Origin: Candidatus Cryptoclostridium obscurum
Lineage (GTDB): Bacteria; Bacillota; Dehalobacteriia; UBA7702
Direction of reading: 5' to 3'
Length of the DNA: 39,458 bases
Assembly: GCA_904420535.1 (NCBI GenBank)
Contig: CAJFVQ010000024.1
Span: 1 to 39,458, forward strand
Shown here in pieces: positions 11,874-20,652 of this stretch; the stretch's first letter is position 1; each line of letters opens with the position of its first letter. Under the pieces are notes generated by a model. That model did not search any database. It was not told the origin of the DNA and saw only the letters and a list, made by a program, of their open reading frames with translations. The position numbers and the translations under genes were made by a program.

Positions 11874-11923
11874 CAATTGCCTCCTTTGTGGAAATCATCT
11901 GGAAAACAAGACTTATAAAAATG

Positions 11924-11957
11924 CTGTTGTCATCTTTTCTGTTGACAACAGTTTTTT
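11924..11957. terminator. Hairpin with T-tracts on both sides, in the merR-like leader
   Basis: A 9-bp stem (CTGTTGTCA with TGACAACAG) and a 10-base loop. It is followed by TTTTTT on the plus strand and CATTTTTA on the minus strand. On the minus strand it lies in the leader of the MerR-family gene, where it could act as an attenuator. Confidence 0.55.
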
Positions 11958-12042
11958 ATTGGCGCGTGCACATCCATAAGGACTCTTCGCACCAAATCTG
12001 TCATTGGATTCAGCATTTCTCAAAGTTGTGTTTTGTCAAGTG

Positions 12043-12071
12043 ATAGTATCAGGTTCTGCGAAAAAAGTCAA
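12043..12071 (-). promoter_or_regulatory. Candidate promoter for the MerR-family gene
   Basis: Minus strand TTGACT (12071-12066), a 17-base spacer and TACTAT (12048-12043). It would give a leader of about 160 bases that includes the hairpin at 11924-11951. Confidence 0.4.
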
Positions 12072-12196
12072 GGGCTGAACTATTTTCTCTAGGCAGTATG
12101 GAACGACACCGAAAATAAATATCTAAAACCCCAAGACAGAAATCATTCTAGTGTTTGACCTGATTTTAGAGTTTTGATCTAAATCATAGTACGTAA

Positions 12197-12232
12197 TTTC
12201 TGCCGAATTTTAAGCGTCAAAATTTTCAGAAA
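12197..12232. promoter_or_regulatory. Candidate activator-binding inverted repeat
   Basis: Nested inverted repeats TTTCTG...CAGAAA and AATTTT...AAAATT lie 90-125 bases upstream of the sigma-54 promoter, the usual distance for enhancer sites. A second, looser repeat (GATTTTAGA...TCTAAATC) lies just upstream near 12163-12186. No other function is evident in 12072-12196. Confidence 0.35.
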
Positions 12233-12320
12233 ATAGCCAAAATTTTTGCTGAATATTGTTTTAAATGCTTTTGAGGAGAATCGAAAAGGCCTTAAGCTGG
12301 CAATTTTTAGGATGTATGAT

Positions 12321-12338
12321 TTGGCACGATTTTTGCTA
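12321..12338 (+). promoter_or_regulatory. Sigma-54 (-24/-12) promoter
   Basis: TTGGCACGATTTTTGCTA has the invariant GG (12323-12324) and GC (12335-12336) exactly ten bases apart and matches TGGCAC-N5-TTGC fully. It lies about 110 bases before the flavoprotein start. The operon is followed by a gene for a sigma-54 activator. Confidence 0.9.
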
Positions 12339-12370
12339 TATGGAATAAATCATAGGATACATATGACGTG

Positions 12371-12421
12371 GAAAGGAGGAATGTGCGTGACCTAAGTAAA
12401 ATGCCCTGTTGCAAATAGTGT
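12371..12421 (+). promoter_or_regulatory. Extra ribosome site and tiny frames in the operon leader
   Basis: GAAAGGAGGA (12371-12380) precedes very short frames (GTG ACC TAA at 12387, ATG CCC TGT TGC AAA TAG at 12401). The real flavoprotein site, AAAGGAGG, follows at about 12438. This could be a leader peptide or a relic. Confidence 0.3.
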
Positions 12422-12449
12422 AGATGATCATGTTCGTAAAGGAGGAATT

Positions 12450-14195
12450 ATGTTAAAAGCAGATGTCGTAATTATTGGAAGCGAAGGCGCCGGAGCACGC
12501 GCCGCGATTGAGGTCGCTCGCCATGGTGTAAAACCGTTGGTTTTGACGAAGGGTCCCATTGGGAAAAGTGGAGCCACCATTACGGCAATGGCCGATTTTG
12601 AGGTTGATTCCCGCAGTGCAAAAGAAGTGTTGGGACTGAATGGCGATATAAGAGACAGTCAAGAGAAATTTTTTGAGGACACGCTGATTAGCGGCGGTTA
12701 CCTGAACAATCAAAAGATGTTGGAACGCCATGTAACTGAAATTCCCGCCATTGCCAAAGAGATGATTGATAAAGGTATGAAAGTGGAAAAAGATCTCGAC
12801 AAAGCAGCCGGTCAATCTTATCCCAGAAGCGTTATCACCACTGGTCACGAATTTATGAAGCCTTTGATCAAAATGTGTAAAGAAGAGAATGTGGCGGTAT
12901 ACGAATACTTTATGGCGACAGATCTGGTAAAGAAGGATGGAAAGATTGTTGGTGTTGTCGGCCTTGATCTGTCCACCGGGGAATTTGTAGAAATCAGCAC
13001 AAAGGCTGTAGTTTTGGCAACCGGCGGCGGTATGCAGATCTACCCCTATTCTACCGCACCGGATGAACTGACCGGAGACGGACATGCCATGGCCTTCCGC
13101 GCCGGAGCATCGTTCATTGATATTGAGATGGTGCAATTTATGGGTGGAACAATGATTGCTCCTCCCGCCGTAGAAGGACAAGGGTTTGGTTATGCGTTAT
13201 GCGCTGATTTAAATTCCATGGATTGTTGGATGCTGAATAAGTTTGGTACCCGCTTCATGGCAGAAAAGGATCCTGTCCACAAAGAACACGTTACCAGAGA
13301 TAAACTTGCTGTCGGTATGATGACAGAAGTCTTTGAGGGAAGAGGCACGCCCAATGGCGGCATCTATGTATCCGTATCGCATCTTCCGGATCAGATTATC
13401 GATCATTATCCCGCAGCGAAAAATGTGCCCTATCTTTCCAAAGATTGGGATTTTATGGGCTTCAATTATAAACAGATCATGGAAGAGGCCAAACGAGGGA
13501 AGGCATTGGAAATGGCCGTTGCCAGTCATTTTTTCTGTGGCGGGATCAAAATTGATGAAACAGGTTCGACAGGAATTCCCGGATTTTATGCAGCGGGAGA
13601 AGTTACCGGAGGAACTGAAGGCGGCAACCGTATTAGCGGAAACGCATTGACTCAGGTTTTGGTGCAAGGGAAAGATGCCGGAGCTTCGGCGGCGGAATAT
13701 GCCAAGAAGGCAAGTTTTGAAGAACTTCCTAAAGATATGGGACAATATAAGGATCGTGTTTTGAGCCCGATCTCCAGGGAAGGAAGCGAATCCTCCTTTG
13801 AATTGCGCAAACGCCTGCAAAAGCTATGTTGGGACAATATGTGTGTAGTCAGAACCGAAGAGTCTTTGCTATACGTAATCAGCGAGCTTCAAAAGTTCAA
13901 AGAAATTCTGCCCCACATCGGAATTCGTGCAAAAAACAGAGTGTATAACCGAGAATGGGTCGACGCGCTACAACTGGAAAGCTTGATTACCGTTGCCGAG
14001 CTGGTGGCGACCGGCGCATTACAACGAAAGGAAAGTCGCTGTGTGCATTATCGCCAAGATTTCCCGGTGGCCGACTATCAGAATTATAGCATGAATAATA
14101 TTCTAGAAAATGATAACGGAAAAATTTCCGCTCATTTTGAACCCTGTGTCGTAACATCAATTTCTATTCCTAAGGAGGCTCCCAAAAATGAGTGA
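12450..14195 (+). CDS. FrdA/SdhA-like FAD-dependent oxidoreductase, non-canonical active site
   Basis: A 581-residue flavoprotein of the succinate dehydrogenase/fumarate reductase superfamily. The FAD motif is VVIIGSEGAGARAAIEVA, and the C-terminal FAD segment GFYAAGEVTGGTEGGNRISG is well kept. Of the known fumarate-site residues, equivalents of Arg287 (VTRDKLA), His355 (ASHFFCGG) and Arg390 (GNRISGNAL) appear present. The VQ(F/Y)HPT motif with His232 is replaced by VQFMGGT. The covalent-FAD His is also absent (KSGAT in place of SHT), as in non-covalent relatives such as L-aspartate oxidase. It starts at ATG 12450 after AAAGGAGG and overlaps the ferredoxin-like gene by eight bases, so the two probably form one enzyme. 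The substrate is probably not succinate or fumarate. Confidence 0.85.
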   Translation: MLKADVVIIGSEGAGARAAIEVARHGVKPLVLTKGPIGKSGATITAMADFEVDSRSAKEVLGLNGDIRDSQEKFFEDTLISGGYLNNQKMLERHVTEIPAIAKEMIDKGMKVEKDLDKAAGQSYPRSVITTGHEFMKPLIKMCKEENVAVYEYFMATDLVKKDGKIVGVVGLDLSTGEFVEISTKAVVLATGGGMQIYPYSTAPDELTGDGHAMAFRAGASFIDIEMVQFMGGTMIAPPAVEGQGFGYALCADLNSMDCWMLNKFGTRFMAEKDPVHKEHVTRDKLAVGMMTEVFEGRGTPNGGIYVSVSHLPDQIIDHYPAAKNVPYLSKDWDFMGFNYKQIMEEAKRGKALEMAVASHFFCGGIKIDETGSTGIPGFYAAGEVTGGTEGGNRISGNALTQVLVQGKDAGASAAEYAKKASFEELPKDMGQYKDRVLSPISREGSESSFELRKRLQKLCWDNMCVVRTEESLLYVISELQKFKEILPHIGIRAKNRVYNREWVDALQLESLITVAELVATGALQRKESRCVHYRQDFPVADYQNYSMNNILENDNGKISAHFEPCVVTSISIPKEAPKNE

Positions 14196-14523
14196 TAAAA
14201 AGATCGTAAAACTTAAGGTATTCCGGTTTGATCCCGCCATCGATCAGGAACCGCATTATGATATTTTTGAAGTAGAGACCCAAACAGGGTACAGCATCTA
14301 TAATGCTTTGGAATATATTGCGGAAAATCTCGACTCAACATTAGCCTATTATGCTTCATGCAGAATTGGGGCATGCAATGGCTGTGTAGCTCGAGTAAAC
14401 GGTAAAGTTGTGCGGACTTGTACCACAATATTGACTGATGATATCACAGTGGAACCGGTAAATAAGGATAAAGTACTGAAGGATCTGGTTTTGAAATGTG
14501 CCCCATTGCCGGAAGTTATGTAA
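14188..14523 (+). CDS. Stand-alone [2Fe-2S] subunit (SdhB/FrdB N-terminal domain)
   Basis: A 111-residue protein equal to the plant-ferredoxin-like N-terminal domain of succinate dehydrogenase iron-sulfur subunits. It has the cluster motif SCRIGACNGCVARVNGKVVRTC, i.e. C-x4-C-x2-C-x11-C, and the opening KIVKLKVFRFDP. The C-terminal half with the 4Fe-4S and 3Fe-4S clusters is missing, and no second iron-sulfur gene is nearby. It therefore passes electrons between the flavoprotein and an unknown partner, possibly a soluble carrier. Its ATG at 14188 follows AAGGAGG inside the end of the flavoprotein gene. Confidence 0.87.
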   Translation: MSDKKIVKLKVFRFDPAIDQEPHYDIFEVETQTGYSIYNALEYIAENLDSTLAYYASCRIGACNGCVARVNGKVVRTCTTILTDDITVEPVNKDKVLKDLVLKCAPLPEVM

Positions 14524-14541
14524 TGGTCAGGAGGTGTTCTT

Positions 14542-16008
14542 ATGGGCCAAAATCAAACATCAACAAAAAAAAGTAGGTTGATCCGAACACCGAGGAAACT
14601 GAGCGTTGCGGAGACATATATCACGATTGCTTTTATGCTCTGTGCCCTGATCGTTTTATATGCCATCGTTGGTTGGGATCTTAAAATTACGTTATTGCTG
14701 GTATTGGCATTTAATGTATTTATGGGATGGCGCATTGGAACCCCTTTTAAAACAATGGAAAAATACATCGGCGATCGTATTGGCAGTTTGGGATTCTTTA
14801 TGCTGGTATTGTTGGGAATTGGTTTTCTCATGGCAACGTGTATTTGTTCCGGTACCATTCCCGTTTTAATTTCTTGGTTGGTACAATGTGTTTCTCCCTC
14901 CATTGTTTTATTGCTGTGTCTGATTTTGCCAAGCATATTGTCGGTGGCTGTGATTTCCAGCTTTGCCACTTTGGGAACTTTGGGGATCATTATGTTTAGC
15001 GTTGCAACTATGTGCGGAGTTCCGCCGGGCCTGGCCGCAGCGGCTTGTATCTGCGGTGCAAATTTTGGACAATACTTCTCTCCTTTAGGAGATACGACGA
15101 ATCTTTGCGCCCAAGTCAATGGCATCAGTATCCAACGATTCATGAAAGGTTTTAGCATTCCCTTTGGAATTTCCTTTGTGATTACGGCTATTGTGTTCTT
15201 CATTCTTGGAAATATGTATGTCAGTGGCTCCGGAACAGGCAGCGATATCGCGGTTATTACCGATTGGGTACATGCGAATTTCAATACCAGCGTACTGGTG
15301 CTGCTTCCCTTTGTTGTGGCAATTGTGTTAGCGTTGTTGAAGGTACATGCCATTATTTTGATTTATGGCACCGGTGTTACTGCTATGATTCTCGGCTTTA
15401 CCTTGCAAGGTTTTGGTGTTGTCGATTGTATTAATGCAGCTTATAACGGTTTTTCCACTGATATTATGATGCCGGGAGTGGAAATTCCCGAAGCGGTTTC
15501 AAGTCTGCTGAATCGCGGCGGTATTTACAGCATGGCCGACGGTATTGTCTTTTTCCTGATTATGCTGGCCTGTATTGCCGTATTAGATGCCATCGGTGTC
15601 TTTGATGTATTGAAAGAGTCGATGTTTAAAAAACCTGGTACAGCAGGAGTTATGACGTTGAAAGCATCGATTTGCAGCTTCGTTTTTGCCATTGTTGCCT
15701 GTGAGACCTATACTACGGTCATGCTCAGTTCCGAGGTAATTAAGCGCCCCATAGAAGCTGCCGGCTATGATCCGACGAAGGCAGCCAATATATCAATTGC
15801 TATGGGGCAACTGACCTCATATTTATGTCCCTGGTCTTTTTTGGCGATTTATATGGCGGCGATCTGCGGCGTATCGGTTTTAGATTTTGCACCCTATGCC
15901 GTGCTGTTCTGGATTTTACCCATCGTAATTATCGTATTGAGTTTTCTGGGAATCGGCAATAAAAAATTGCAGACCGTCAAAGCCGAGGTTCCTCAGGGAG
16001 AATTGTAA
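14542..16008 (+). CDS. NhaC-family Na+/H+ antiporter-like transporter
   Basis: A 488-residue membrane protein with about twelve hydrophobic segments of the NhaC family. Typical motifs are CGANFGQYFSPLGDTTNLCA and SYLCPWSFLAIYMAAI, matching the S/C-P-L-(G/S)-D-(S/T) and PW regions of the family. The ATG at 14542 follows CAGGAGGTG, 18 bases after the ferredoxin-like gene. Members exchange Na+ for H+ or, in divergent clades, organic anions (for example malate for lactate). In this operon it may export a product or recycle Na+ brought in by the next transporter; both are inferences. Confidence 0.85.
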   Translation: MGQNQTSTKKSRLIRTPRKLSVAETYITIAFMLCALIVLYAIVGWDLKITLLLVLAFNVFMGWRIGTPFKTMEKYIGDRIGSLGFFMLVLLGIGFLMATCICSGTIPVLISWLVQCVSPSIVLLLCLILPSILSVAVISSFATLGTLGIIMFSVATMCGVPPGLAAAACICGANFGQYFSPLGDTTNLCAQVNGISIQRFMKGFSIPFGISFVITAIVFFILGNMYVSGSGTGSDIAVITDWVHANFNTSVLVLLPFVVAIVLALLKVHAIILIYGTGVTAMILGFTLQGFGVVDCINAAYNGFSTDIMMPGVEIPEAVSSLLNRGGIYSMADGIVFFLIMLACIAVLDAIGVFDVLKESMFKKPGTAGVMTLKASICSFVFAIVACETYTTVMLSSEVIKRPIEAAGYDPTKAANISIAMGQLTSYLCPWSFLAIYMAAICGVSVLDFAPYAVLFWILPIVIIVLSFLGIGNKKLQTVKAEVPQGEL

Positions 16009-16045
16009 AATCGATTGACTTTCTTTAAAAATCGTTAAAATCGAT

Positions 16046-17473
16046 GTGCGGCCGGATCAAGAAATAGTAGAAAGGAGGAAAGAATACGATGGGATAATTG
16101 AACAGTTTGGAGCTTTTGTCGCGGATCTGGGCGCATGGTTGTGGGGGATTCCACTACTGATCATATTCCTTTTTTGTTATTTGTTTATCTCAGCCAGTAC
16201 GGGATTTGTCCAGTTTCGACATCTCGCCCATATCTGTAAAAATACCTTTGGTGAAATGTTTGGCCGTAAAAAGGGAGAAGGCACTATCCGCCCCTTCTCC
16301 GCCGCCATGACGGCGCTTGCCCAAAGTGTGGGTGCTTCCAACATTGTGGGCGTGCCTCTAGCGATTGCTATCGGTGGGCCAGGAGCACTCTTCTGGCTAT
16401 GGGTTGCCTGTCTTTTGGGAATGGGGATGCGATATGCGGAAATCGCCATCGCCGTAAAATACCGAGAAAAAAACGCCAATGGCGAATGGGTAGGCGGCCC
16501 CCAAATGTATATGAAAAAGGGACTCCGCGCCGGGGCTTTGGCGATGGTATGGTCCGTTGCTTATGTTCTGGTGGTGTTGCTTTCCGTACCTGCGCAAACT
16601 GCCTCTGTTGTTGAAAATGCTTCCACCGTTGGTGTACCTGGATGGCTGGTAGCCGGTATTATGTTTATTGCTACCGCGCTTGTCATTTTTGGCGGCATCA
16701 AACGTATTGCAAAAATTACGGATATTTTGGTCCCTTTTATGGCGCTGTTTTATTTCCTTACGGCATGGGGCATTATATTCTCTCACGGCAACGCTTTGGG
16801 TAGTTCTTTGGTACTAGTATTTCAGTCGGCTTTTGCTCCAGCTGCCGCTGTTGGCGGTTTTGCGGGATCCGGTGTGATTATGGCAATTCGTCAAGGGGTA
16901 GCTAGGGGGATTTATTCTTTCGGCGCTGGTATGGGGGACTTTACCATTGCCCATGCTGCGGCAATTACAGATCATCCGTGCCGTCAAGCCCAGTGGGGAG
17001 TTTTTGAGATGATATGCAGTTTTGTTATTTGTACAACTTCCGGCTTATTGGCTTTGACAACAGGTTTGTGGACTGTTGGAGAAAGTGCCGCAGGAACCAT
17101 TCCCTCATTGGCTTTTGCCGAGTTTTATCCCGGAAATTTAGGACCAATTCTGTTATCTATTTCCCTGTTTTTGTTTGCCTATTCCACCATTTTGGTGGCG
17201 ATTCACTATGGACGTAAACAGGCGGAATATGTCGGTGGACAAAAACTGTCCCAAATTATGGGGGTAGTATATCTTCTTTGCATACCTTTTGGCGCAGTTG
17301 CCACCATGGGATATTTTTTAAATTTCGTAGACATTATGCTGGCCTTTGTTGTATTTACAAATATTATTTCTGTAACACTGATGTGGAAGCAAATCAGAGC
17401 GCTTGTAGCAGATTATTTCGGGAATCCAAATTTTTATCCGCGGAGAAAAAAGTTTCGCAATGAAAACGGATGA
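16046..17473 (+). CDS. AGCS-family Na+:amino acid symporter (start region suspect)
   Basis: A Na+/alanine(glycine) symporter family member with about eleven hydrophobic segments. Family motifs include GEGTIRPFSAAMTALAQSVG, the stretch around SNIVGVPLAIAIGGPGALFW, WVGGPQMYMKKG, GVARGIYSFGAGMGDFTIAH and an AYSTILVAIHYG region. The open frame begins at GTG 16046, which has no ribosome site. A strong site (AAAGGAGG, 16071-16078) lies inside this frame and points to ATG 16089, which is one base out of frame and reads Met-Gly-stop. One extra G in the GGG run would give MGIIEQFGAF in frame. The true product is probably about 461 residues, and the copy as read is frameshifted at codon 2, or one G is missing from the sequence. 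It is likely the substrate importer of the operon. Confidence 0.82.
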   Translation: MRPDQEIVERRKEYDGIIEQFGAFVADLGAWLWGIPLLIIFLFCYLFISASTGFVQFRHLAHICKNTFGEMFGRKKGEGTIRPFSAAMTALAQSVGASNIVGVPLAIAIGGPGALFWLWVACLLGMGMRYAEIAIAVKYREKNANGEWVGGPQMYMKKGLRAGALAMVWSVAYVLVVLLSVPAQTASVVENASTVGVPGWLVAGIMFIATALVIFGGIKRIAKITDILVPFMALFYFLTAWGIIFSHGNALGSSLVLVFQSAFAPAAAVGGFAGSGVIMAIRQGVARGIYSFGAGMGDFTIAHAAAITDHPCRQAQWGVFEMICSFVICTTSGLLALTTGLWTVGESAAGTIPSLAFAEFYPGNLGPILLSISLFLFAYSTILVAIHYGRKQAEYVGGQKLSQIMGVVYLLCIPFGAVATMGYFLNFVDIMLAFVVFTNIISVTLMWKQIRALVADYFGNPNFYPRRKKFRNENG

Positions 17474-17532
17474 TAAGCGACTCTGGACATCATCCATCAT
17501 TTCTTTTATGATTTATTAAAGGAGGTATTTAT

Positions 17533-18318
17533 ATGACTCTAGTATTAGAAAATCAAGTTGCTGTAGTTTTTGGCGGAGCCGGAATTATTGGGGCGGAAAT
17601 GTGTAAAGCCCTGGGGGCTGCCGGCGCAGCTGTTGCCGTTCTGGACATGTTGCCGGAATCAGCGCAAAAAGTCGCGGATGAAATTGTTGCCGATGGAGGC
17701 AAAGCGTCGGCTTTTCAATGCAAAGCCGATGAAGAAGATAGCGTGGCTGCCGCTTTAAAAGCTGTCCATGATGCTTATGGCCGTATTGACATTTGTGTCA
17801 GCAGTATTCACAGACAATTTATTCCCGAATTTGTTGTGAACCAAACTTGGGAATATTGGGATCGTCATATCGAGGCAATTAAAATCCATATGTTTATCTG
17901 TAAACATACGGTGCCATATATGCAGGAACATCGATATGGACGTATTATCTATATTTCCGGTGGGATGTGCCGGCGTTTTTATGAAGGCGGCTCGGCTTAC
18001 TCCTGTGTCAAAGCCGGTTTAAATGCTTTTACGAAAACCCTTGCTATGGAGGTTGGTAAGGATAATATCATGGCAAATGTCATTGCTCCCGGCCGTATTG
18101 TGGACGAGTCCGGCGGGCTTACTTCTGAACGAGCAAATGCTTTGGATAGTAAAGCCGAAGAAGATCCCATGGATGATGTGTGCGAAGCCCCCACGGGACA
18201 ATATGCTACGGCAAAGCATGTTGCTGAATGCGTTGTCTGGTTAGCTTCCCCAGGATGCTACAATACGACAGGGCAGACGATTTATGTCGGTGGCGGCGAA
18301 ATCATGCCGATGCCCTGA
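17533..18318 (+). CDS. Short-chain dehydrogenase/reductase (SDR)
   Basis: A 261-residue NAD(P)-dependent oxidoreductase of the classical SDR family. The nucleotide-binding glycine motif is GGAGIIGAE near residue 14, the active site has a Ser in ISGGM and the Y-x3-K motif YSCVK, and the C-terminus has the usual ASPGCYNTTGQTIYVGGG. The structural NNAG motif is altered to VSSI. The ATG at 17533 follows AAAGGAGG. As the last gene of the sigma-54 operon it probably oxidises or reduces an alcohol/ketone intermediate of the imported substrate; the substrate is not identifiable. Confidence 0.87.
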   Translation: MTLVLENQVAVVFGGAGIIGAEMCKALGAAGAAVAVLDMLPESAQKVADEIVADGGKASAFQCKADEEDSVAAALKAVHDAYGRIDICVSSIHRQFIPEFVVNQTWEYWDRHIEAIKIHMFICKHTVPYMQEHRYGRIIYISGGMCRRFYEGGSAYSCVKAGLNAFTKTLAMEVGKDNIMANVIAPGRIVDESGGLTSERANALDSKAEEDPMDDVCEAPTGQYATAKHVAECVVWLASPGCYNTTGQTIYVGGGEIMPMP

Positions 18319-18369
18319 GAATAAGAATTAAACTCTGATTCAATCCTTTGCTTTATATTATACCAGTAA

Positions 18370-18400
18370 ATACCACGCTTTCTGAGAGCGTGTGTAGTAT
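18370..18400 (+). terminator. Hairpin after the SDR gene
   Basis: CACGCT and AGCGTG pair around a 7-base loop, with flanking ATAC/GTAT able to extend the stem, followed by CCTTTTCTTT. Confidence 0.55.
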
Positions 18401-18426
18401 CCTTTTCTTTCCCCTCTATAAAGATT

Positions 18427-18470
18427 CCCCGGCAGCACAAACCAAGGTGCTGCCGGGGAGTTTCTGTTTT
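18427..18470. terminator. Strong stem-loop between convergent genes
   Basis: A perfect 12-bp stem (CCCCGGCAGCAC with GTGCTGCCGGGG) and an 8-base loop, followed by AGTTTCTGTTTT. It separates the sigma-54 operon from the convergent activator gene. Confidence 0.85.
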
Positions 18471-18524
18471 AGGGCAATAACGGCATAAATTCCATGTGAA
18501 ATATGTTATGATCCTATGTTTTTA

Positions 18525-20261
18525 TTATTCTGGAGGAATAAGGTCGAATTTTTTTATTTTATATTGTAGATTGGAACGACTGAGCCCCAATGATTCTGCG
18601 GCTTTTGTGATATTCCATCTGTACTTTTGCAATGCGTTGGAGATGAGCGATTCCTCGATTGCGGTGAGAGTATCTTTTAGATTTCCGTCATTGCATTGTT
18701 GGCTGTATGCTTGAGTGCCATCTTGTTCTGGAAAAAGTGGCGTGCTGTTTTCATTATTTTGGGCGTGTAATTCCGGAAGACGGAAGGAGATGCTGTCAGA
18801 ATCTAATATTAACAGAGAATGGAGCATCGTATTTTGTAATTCTCGCACATTTCCCGGCCAAGAATAGGACATCAATGTTTCGTGATTTTTGGGGGACAAA
18901 CAGATGCAAGGGATCTCATAAGCCGAAGAGTATTTCTCCAGAAAATATTCAGCCAGCGGAATAATATCTTCCTTTCGCTCTCTTAATGGAGGTACATTGA
19001 TGGTAAGCGCGGAAATTCGATAATAGAGATCCTCCCGCAAAGTATGGTTGGAAATGCACTCCTGGGGTTGCTGATTAATGGACGACATGATCCTGCACCC
19101 TACCTTATGCTCCTTGGTGTCACCAAGCTTACGGTATGTTTTTTCCTGGATGACTCTTAACAATTTTGCTTGAAGGTTACCGGGCATGGAATTGATTTCG
19201 TCCAAAAACAGTGTCCCTTGACCGGCCTGTTCAATAAGGCCCTTGGTATTTTTTGCCTCGGTAAAAGCACCGGGTACAGAGCCGAATAATGTAATCTCAA
19301 GCAGATTTTCAGGAATGGCGGCGACATTAACGGCAATAAAGGGCTGCGACGCATTGGCACTGGCATTGTGGATGCTTTGAGCGATCATTTCTTTCCCGGT
19401 ACCAGTTTCTCCGCAGATCAGGATAGGTACTAAATTGAAAGAGGCTGCTTTTTGTGCAAGTTTTATGGTTTCTTTCATGGATGGGCTTTCTCCAATGATG
19501 CTGGAGAAAGTATAGTAAGTGTTATTTTTATTGGTATTTTCGGCGGAGATTTGGTTTTGGTACTCCAGGATATCATTTAATAAGGGGGTAAGCTGTGTAT
19601 TCCAGTGAAGCACAGTACAAGCGGCAATGGTTTTCCCTTCTTTTTTAATGGGATAAGAACTGCCGAAGGCAACGATGGTTTTTCCAGATGGTGTTGTATA
19701 TACATTTTTTTTATTTAAAAGTTCCTTTCCTGTTCTCAATGTTGTCAACATATTGCTGCTTTCTGGATTTGGAAAAACTTCTTCGTATTTTTTCCCAACG
19801 ACCATTTCCGGAGATGTGTCATCATCGGAGTGAATTGATTGCGGCAGATGGTAGAGTAACGTCGTATGATCTACATCACTGATCATAAACCCTAAATCAC
19901 TTGCGGAATTCATAAATTCCTTATAGATATATAATTCATCCATGGATTTTTTAGTGGATGTATTGTCAGATATTGTATAAAAATAGAAAGGTTCTCCTTG
20001 AAAATTCTTTTTACTACTATGAACAGAAAGGATACAATCATTCAACTGAAACGAGAATTGGGTTCTGCTTTTAGGCAAGGAAGATAATTTTTTTATGAGG
20101 ATCTCTTTGGCTAAATGCATTGTCGTGGAAAAATCAATGAAGGCTTGGTTATAACATACGATGTTATAATTTTCTGCAATCATGACGATGCTGCAAGGGA
20201 GACAGTCCAAAAGATTTTTTGCCTCTTTCAAATTTGACTTTAAAGAATCTTGTTGTTGCAT
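18525..20261 (-). CDS. Sigma-54-dependent activator (PAS, AAA+, Fis-type HTH)
   Basis: A 578-residue enhancer-binding protein. Two PAS-like sensory regions (about 15-110 and 115-235) precede the AAA+ domain (about 255-485). Walker A is GETGTGKE (284-291) and Walker B GTLFLDEI. The C-terminal Fis-type helix-turn-helix reads NITKAAESLGLSRSNLQYKI. The sigma-54 contact loop is GAFTEA (331-336), not the usual GAFTGA. The ATG at 20261 follows GAGAGGAGAG. It is convergent with the only sigma-54-promoted operon in the window and is its likely activator. The PAS domains presumably sense the substrate or a metabolite. Nothing else is assigned in 20262-20454 apart from an AT-rich region that may hold its promoter. 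Confidence 0.92.
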   Translation of the reverse strand: MQQQDSLKSNLKEAKNLLDCLPCSIVMIAENYNIVCYNQAFIDFSTTMHLAKEILIKKLSSLPKSRTQFSFQLNDCILSVHSSKKNFQGEPFYFYTISDNTSTKKSMDELYIYKEFMNSASDLGFMISDVDHTTLLYHLPQSIHSDDDTSPEMVVGKKYEEVFPNPESSNMLTTLRTGKELLNKKNVYTTPSGKTIVAFGSSYPIKKEGKTIAACTVLHWNTQLTPLLNDILEYQNQISAENTNKNNTYYTFSSIIGESPSMKETIKLAQKAASFNLVPILICGETGTGKEMIAQSIHNASANASQPFIAVNVAAIPENLLEITLFGSVPGAFTEAKNTKGLIEQAGQGTLFLDEINSMPGNLQAKLLRVIQEKTYRKLGDTKEHKVGCRIMSSINQQPQECISNHTLREDLYYRISALTINVPPLRERKEDIIPLAEYFLEKYSSAYEIPCICLSPKNHETLMSYSWPGNVRELQNTMLHSLLILDSDSISFRLPELHAQNNENSTPLFPEQDGTQAYSQQCNDGNLKDTLTAIEESLISNALQKYRWNITKAAESLGLSRSNLQYKIKKFDLIPPE

Positions 20262-20495: not shown

Positions 20496-20572
20496 TGGTG
20501 ACGCGTAGGGGATTCGAACCCCTGAATGCCAGCGTGAAAGGCTGGTGAGTTAAGCCGCTTCTCCAACGCGCC
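20496..20572 (-). tRNA. tRNA-Glu (TTC)
   Basis: Full cloverleaf on the minus strand: acceptor GGCGCGT with ACGCGTC, anticodon arm CCAGC-CTTTCAC-GCTGG giving anticodon TTC, T arm AGGGG-TTCGAAT-CCCCT, and an encoded CCA end. Confidence 0.96.
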
Positions 20573-20576
20573 ATAA

Positions 20577-20652
20577 TGGTAGCGGTGAGTGGATTTGAAC
20601 CACTGACACCCCGGGTATGAACCGAGTGCTCTGACCTCTGAGCTACACCGCC
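20577..20652 (-). tRNA. tRNA-Met (CAT), elongator type
   Basis: Cloverleaf on the minus strand: acceptor GGCGGTG with CACCGCT (G-U first pair), anticodon loop TTCATAC giving CAT, T loop TTCAAAT, encoded CCA. It closely resembles Firmicute elongator tRNA-Met rather than initiator. It lies four bases upstream of tRNA-Glu in the same transcript. Confidence 0.94.

Follow-up and report, generated by a model that had tools for sequence, protein, structure and literature searches.

A five-gene flavoprotein, 2Fe-2S protein, transporter and dehydrogenase module behind a perfect sigma-54 promoter, with a possible role in the use of an amino-acid-like monocarboxylate

What does a compact set of enzyme and transporter genes behind a sigma-54 promoter do in Candidatus Cryptoclostridium obscurum, and does the activator gene at its end belong to it? 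We analyzed a stretch of 39,458 nucleotides (contig CAJFVQ010000024.1; hereafter, the window). A -24/-12 promoter of exact consensus, TTGGCACGATTTTTGCTA, lies at 12321–12338 on the forward strand, and TTGGCACGATTTTTGCTAT at 12321 was the sole exact match to TGGCACN5TTGCW in the 39-kb window, with 0.065 matches expected per shuffled window. The start codon of the first gene (ATG) follows at about 128 bp, and rpoN was found in the host genome. Pfam assigned the families of the five same-strand open reading frames: an FrdA/SdhA-like flavoprotein of 581 aa (Fp; 12450–14195; FAD_binding_2 and Succ_DH_flav_C), a 2Fe-2S-only protein of 111 aa of the FrdB N-terminal type (Fd; 14188–14523; Fer2_3), an NhaC/ArcD-superfamily antiporter of 488 aa (14542–16008; Na_H_antiporter), an AGCS-family Na+:amino-acid symporter (16046–17473; Na_Ala_symp), and a classical short-chain dehydrogenase (SDR) of 261 aa (17533–18318; adh_short_C2). 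Fp and Fd overlap by 8 bp, and the later gaps are 18, 37, and 59 bp. A strong intrinsic terminator with a 17-pair stem (18422–18463, forward strand), which overlaps a 13-pair terminator-like stem on the reverse strand, stands between the five-gene set and a convergent gene for a PAS-AAA+-Fis sigma-54-type activator (18525–20261, reverse strand; Sigma54_activat, HTH_8, and a weak PAS_9). Directly upstream of the activator gene are tandem genes for tRNA-Glu(ttc) and tRNA-Met(cat) (window 20496–20652, reverse strand). A sequence-only reading had named the perfect promoter, the five genes with their families, and the convergent activator-type gene, and all three were confirmed. Sigma-54 control of the operon, which that reading also asserted, is likely because of the perfect promoter, the presence of rpoN, and the same promoter type upstream of related Fp modules.

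The five genes might have come together by chance and serve ordinary Na+/H+ homeostasis and alanine uptake, as AGCS and NhaC are common transporter families. We consider this highly improbable, because the gene set is syntenic across distant genomes. In G314, a genome that matches Peptococcaceae UBA5318 and belongs to another family and order than the host, all five genes occur in the same order (locus L068), with identities of 79, 77, 71, 72, and 79% for Fp, Fd, the NhaC-like protein, the AGCS symporter, and the SDR, respectively. Moreover, this SDR type (E ≤ 1e-45) was found only in the host and G314 among 399 phylum genomes, that is, only with this gene set, and the symporter carries motifs unlike those of the AGCS paralogs of the host. 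The proposal that the five genes form one module was thus supported.

A parallel module in the host, on contig C94 (L031), has a divergent activator, and its Fp follows a -24/-12 site at a distance of 78 bp. Its Fp, Fd, and NhaC-like proteins share 60, 61, and 42% identity with those of the window, and it includes a member of the 2,4-diaminopentanoate dehydrogenase (Ord) family and a membrane permease, which we judge from its sequence to be YkvI-like (it had no NCBIfam or Pfam match). Both modules repeat one composition of a flavoprotein pair, an NAD(P)-type dehydrogenase, an NhaC-like antiporter, a permease, and an activator, and the recurrence of the NhaC-like protein with a permease also argues against a chance grouping.

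Among the 399 phylum genomes, Fp relatives of more than 60% identity occurred only in the host (two copies), G314 (79%), and G418 (68%). In the search for relatives, 42 same-class genomes gave no Fp match above 35% over most of the protein, and no further carriers turned up within the orders to which G314 and G418 belong. The full module was seen in two genomes only, and the case for co-selection rests on one synteny comparison and the paralogous module. Because of this patchy distribution, the data suggest horizontal transfer of the module. The predicted clustering of the five genes with the activator was found for the genes but not for the activator: in L068, a TetR gene (Pfam TetR_N) stands in front of the module instead. 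Two GGAGCGYGCTCC palindromes lie between the TetR gene and Fp and a third lies before the TetR gene (L068:14631–14642, 14678–14689, and 15341–15352); these are likely an operator set, with a swap of regulator. No strong -24/-12 site was found before the L068 module, though the G314 genome has rpoN. Since TetR and the palindromes stand in for the sigma-54 parts, the gene comparison indicates that module and regulator are separable, the structural module being kept while the regulator is exchanged.

We then considered the enzyme. Fp homologs were gathered with an alignment-based query across named genomes, and Fp residues were placed by alignment with SdhA and FrdA and then across 81 homologs; the L068 row lacked 51 C-terminal residues, which lie outside the part used for the active-site comparison. 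For complex II, we took as given the roles and numbers of the catalytic Arg, the His/Arg clamp, the distal-carboxylate His, and the covalent-FAD His. R283, D284, H360, and R394 of Fp were invariant (81/81), Gly41 took the place of the covalent-FAD His in all 81 homologs, and position 231, equivalent to SdhA H242, was Leu, Phe, Tyr, Met, or Ile, but never His. Fp is thus predicted to bind FAD non-covalently and to have a single-carboxylate clamp (R283, H360, and R394); it appears to have kept the catalytic acid and this one clamp and to have lost the pocket for a second carboxylate along with the covalent flavin. Because the second-carboxylate His is gone whereas one clamp and the catalytic Arg are kept, the substrate should carry one carboxylate only, with a different kind of group at its far end. 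NCBIfam scores were far under the cut-offs for SDH, FRD, TfrA, and NadB, and with both defining His residues absent, we rejected Fp as a fumarate reductase or succinate dehydrogenase. The best match was TfrA at 375.9 bits (equivalog cut-off, 718); TfrAB was rejected on this score and that of TfrB (69.5 vs. 385), and L-aspartate oxidase NadB was rejected on TIGR00551 (208 bits vs. 452.75).

Fd aligns to residues 3–105 of FrdB only, the C-terminal 3Fe-4S/4Fe-4S domain being absent; having just the N-terminal 2Fe-2S domain, this protein does not qualify as the three-cluster iron-sulfur subunit of complex II. The Fd gene was located within 600 bp of Fp in 73 of the 83 Fp loci, in bacteria and archaea. 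Fp homologs were distributed across Bacillota, Pseudomonadota, Myxococcota, Chloroflexota, Spirochaetota, Nitrososphaerota, and Bathyarchaeota, with Pseudomonas, Caballeronia, and Bradyrhizobium among the genera. Among the 83 loci, a sigma-54 site was found upstream in 8, and cysteine-synthase-like enzymes lay near 6; M20 peptidases lay near 15 and M24 peptidases near 13, a minority in each case and of varying subfamilies. Four related Fp–Fd operons (L070–L073, in G187, G261, G118, and G193) begin with an M24 peptidase gene behind a perfect -24/-12 site and carry a cysteine-synthase-like enzyme, with LarA or M20 in some; they constitute another sigma-54 module, one without description in the literature consulted. 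In G418 (L069 and L108), the 68%-identical Fp–Fd pair has as neighbors a gene of the arginase/agmatinase family and an ABC transporter of the branched-chain type; NhaC, AGCS, and SDR genes are absent from its surroundings. An ectoine pathway was rejected for the M24/M20-linked relatives, whose DoeA/DoeB2-like scores were far under the cut-offs. The pair matched neither a paper on SDH neighborhoods nor one on a benzene flavoprotein, and no described Fp–Fd family was found in the literature searched, in which this enzyme appears to be uncharacterized.

The antiporter scored under both equivalog cut-offs, namely those for NhaC (TIGR00931, 250.5 vs. 370) and ArcD (NF052307, 172 vs. 650). By contrast with these, the symporter scored 347.3 bits against TIGR00835, above the cut-off of 272.65, and so belongs to the subfamily. 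It aligns to the solved AgcS (PDB 6cse/6csf), from which its TM1 and TM10 motifs differ: the window and L068 proteins both have GASNIVG[VI]P and have lost GWSYYGE. Because the two other AGCS paralogs of the host do not have this pattern, the module symporter probably carries something other than alanine or glycine. As read from its sequence, the SDR keeps the Ser-Tyr-Lys motif typical of the family and is probably NAD(H)-dependent, given the Asp that follows beta-2. Among solved structures in the PDB, those nearest to it are 3-hydroxyacyl/3-hydroxybutyrate dehydrogenases and FabG.

With moderate confidence, we propose that the module takes up and dehydrogenates one particular amino-acid-like monocarboxylate, where the substrate, the direction, the electron acceptor, and the NhaC role are what we infer. 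The divergent AGCS symporter would, judging by its family, import the monocarboxylate with Na+. Fp would act as a dehydrogenase of amino acids or N-substituted acids: H360 and R394 would grip the carboxylate of the substrate, R283 would be the catalytic acid/base, and two electrons would pass to the non-covalent FAD. From there they would exit through the 2Fe-2S center of Fd, presumably to a soluble acceptor, while the NAD-type SDR would interconvert the resulting carbonyl and hydroxyl product, and the NhaC/ArcD-like protein may export the product or rebalance Na+ by antiport. Transcription would start from the sigma-54 promoter and stop at the terminator at 18422, the regulator being exchangeable between hosts. 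The earlier view of Na+-driven uptake plus redox conversion is still a fair one, with the AGCS and NhaC roles suggested by family membership.

This reading of uptake and dehydrogenation is favored by the five-gene synteny at 71–79% identity in a distant genome together with the parallel C94 module, by the Fp catalytic Arg and His/Arg clamp, invariant in homologs that lack both defining His residues, and by the adjacency of Fd to Fp. The neighbors of Fp (M20 and M24 peptidases, an arginase-family enzyme, and a branched-chain-type substrate-binding protein) point to an amino-acid or peptide role, and an oxidizing enzyme is favored because the genera Pseudomonas, Caballeronia, and Bradyrhizobium belong to mostly aerobic groups. 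However, no neighbor fixes the substrate, and the same active-site pattern would fit an enoate reductase such as UrdA. If so, the Fp–Fd pair would be an electron sink: fed with electrons via Fd, it would reduce an alpha,beta-unsaturated monocarboxylate (urocanate- or crotonobetaine-like) that derives from quaternary amines or enters the cell with them, and the methylotrophic host would thereby re-oxidize its carriers. FrdA His mutants show that non-covalent FAD is compatible with reduction, and 42 MttB genes in the host would entail a large methyl-oxidation electron load. The loss of the H242 equivalent with Arg/His/Arg kept also parallels UrdA, in which Tyr replaces the distal-carboxylate His (PMC7921117). 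Nevertheless, we consider a reductase unlikely, since homologs are common in mostly aerobic proteobacteria, peptidases and amino-acid enzymes are neighbors, the surroundings encode neither a cytochrome nor an FMN-domain donor, and UBA5318 has the module but no MttB gene.

The genomic context of the host bears on a further alternative, namely that the module handles the leftovers of quaternary-amine demethylation (N-methyl amino acids such as dimethylglycine, sarcosine, or norcarnitine) and so extends betaine metabolism. The 42 MttB genes are contained in a genome of 2.1 Mb. Host loci around activators (307 kb, window included) contained 22 strong -24/-12 sites, and the genes tested downstream of the surveyed sites were mostly MttB-family methyltransferases or BCCT betaine transporters; the remainder include MFS transporters and TauE-like and sodium:sulfate-symporter-like proteins. 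The MttB/BCCT sites, each beside an activator, are in the host genome (G000) at L088–L106 (contigs C91, C77, C1, C12, C66, C81, C10, C2, and C56). Many MttB frames of the host and its relatives hold one in-frame TAG, as expected for pyrrolysine, and others without it are of the MtgB-like type. The host appears to resemble betaine-using relatives of Dehalobacterium (PMC6716910, PMC9768040), although we infer this placement. Both this setting and the resemblance of the SDR to 3-hydroxybutyrate dehydrogenases, which would suit a norcarnitine-like 3-hydroxy acid, speak for a role in handling such leftovers. We still regard it as improbable: the window and C94 modules stand apart from most of the sigma-54 modules surveyed in the host in having no MttB or BCCT gene, the module is present in UBA5318 without MttB, and the related strain DCMF relies on Grd enzymes to reduce sarcosine (PMC9768040).

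The second half of our question concerns the activator. Its reading frame is unbroken and encodes Walker A and B motifs, but the sigma-54 contact loop (window 19255–19286, reverse strand) reads GAFTEA, which is neither GAFTGA nor a known working variant. Among the 22 host activators in which the loop was readable, 21 have GxxTGA, GAFSGA, or GAFTGS, and that of the window alone has GAFTEA. A degenerate FGxxxGAFTEA pattern occurred in 2 of 300 phylum genomes, one of them the host, as against 190 of 300 for the GAFTGA pattern; the second match (G295) lay among chemotaxis genes, inside a CheB/CheA region, and was rejected as an activator. In NorR, the identical substitution, G266E, yielded no functional protein, although D and N substitutions were constitutive (PMC2941729). 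The change may therefore disable the window activator, and its standing as the module's own activator is doubtful. That the activator is a fixed part of the module was not supported, given also the TetR gene of the second carrier and the lack of any activator ortholog at E ≤ 1e-130 in 399 genomes.

In a tree of the 22 host activators and one other, the window activator was the exclusive sister of the C94 activator (100/100 support), suggesting that regulator and enzyme diverged together within the host lineage. The C94 activator has a GAFTGS loop and the same recognition-helix core, SRSNLQY, and could serve both promoters; the upstream words common to the two promoters were a few 9-mers in AT-rich DNA, at about the chance level. 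There is hence a considerable possibility, if somewhat short of an even one, that the neighboring protein does not work or acts as a competitor or repressor; the promoter would then be silent or depend on a different activator, for which the C94 sister is the prime candidate. Against this, the gene is intact, different activators tolerate loop changes differently, and GAFTEA differs from GAFTGA by one base (GAG vs. GGG), which could possibly be an assembly error or a recent mutation. Two other identities were rejected: PrdR, the proline-reductase activator (315 vs. 795, NCBIfam equivalog), and an anti-phage role, for which the activator gave generic AAA matches only. An inverted repeat claimed at enhancer distance upstream proved to be at chance level, the best palindrome in 12060–12310 being equaled or exceeded in 27 of 60 dinucleotide shuffles. 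A pattern search of 11877–12321 found no TGT-N(9-13)-ACA element, though other motif types are possible; the site of clostridial activators is defined as TGT-N10-12-ACA (PMC6615313).

More broadly, we judge the chances to be evenly balanced that Fp–Fd represents an undescribed two-subunit intracellular flavin/2Fe-2S oxidoreductase family of bacteria and archaea for amino or N-substituted monocarboxylates, plugged into exchangeable transport/dehydrogenase modules and regulators, with the window module as one specialized, horizontally moved form. If this is true, many genes that score as fumarate reductase/succinate dehydrogenase flavoproteins would belong to a different enzyme family, recognizable by the retention of R283, H360, and R394, the loss of both defining His residues, and a 2Fe-2S-only partner. 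The window would then provide a compact setting for a test, since its symporter, enzyme, dehydrogenase, and antiporter jointly narrow the substrate. The perfect sigma-54 promoter next to an activator with GAFTEA also offers a natural test of variability in the sigma-54 contact loop.

Among known systems, the regulatory layout of the locus is of a kind already described. The OrdR regulon of clostridia, ord-ortBA-oraSEF-orr-nhaC (Nie et al. 2019, PMC6615313), likewise has a one-component PAS-type activator beside its target, a -24/-12 promoter, and an NhaC-type transporter with amino-acid enzymes, and the C94 module shares with it an Ord-family gene. The window differs from this regulon in its GAFTEA loop, in having no TGT-N10-12-ACA site, and in Fp–Fd in place of mutase/thiolase enzymes, and the five-gene set is absent from the 39 clostridial EBP groups described (PMC6615313). 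Fp shares the FAD fold, the catalytic Arg, and one His/Arg carboxylate clamp with complex II (SdhAB/FrdAB) and NadB, but it has neither the covalent-FAD His nor the second-carboxylate His; unlike complex II, Fd has no 3Fe-4S/4Fe-4S domain and the module has no membrane anchors. Similar to TfrAB and the alpha subunit of methanogen PAPS reductase, Fp is a soluble FrdA-like flavoprotein with an Fe-S partner, although the TfrB model spans 488 aa, as against the 111 aa of Fd, and Fp scores under the TfrA cut-off. Finally, Fp resembles UrdA and other free-acid reductases in its FrdA-like pocket with the distal-carboxylate His replaced, whereas it differs from UrdA in having no flavinylated FMN domain, a 2Fe-2S partner, and widespread homologs in mostly aerobic genera.
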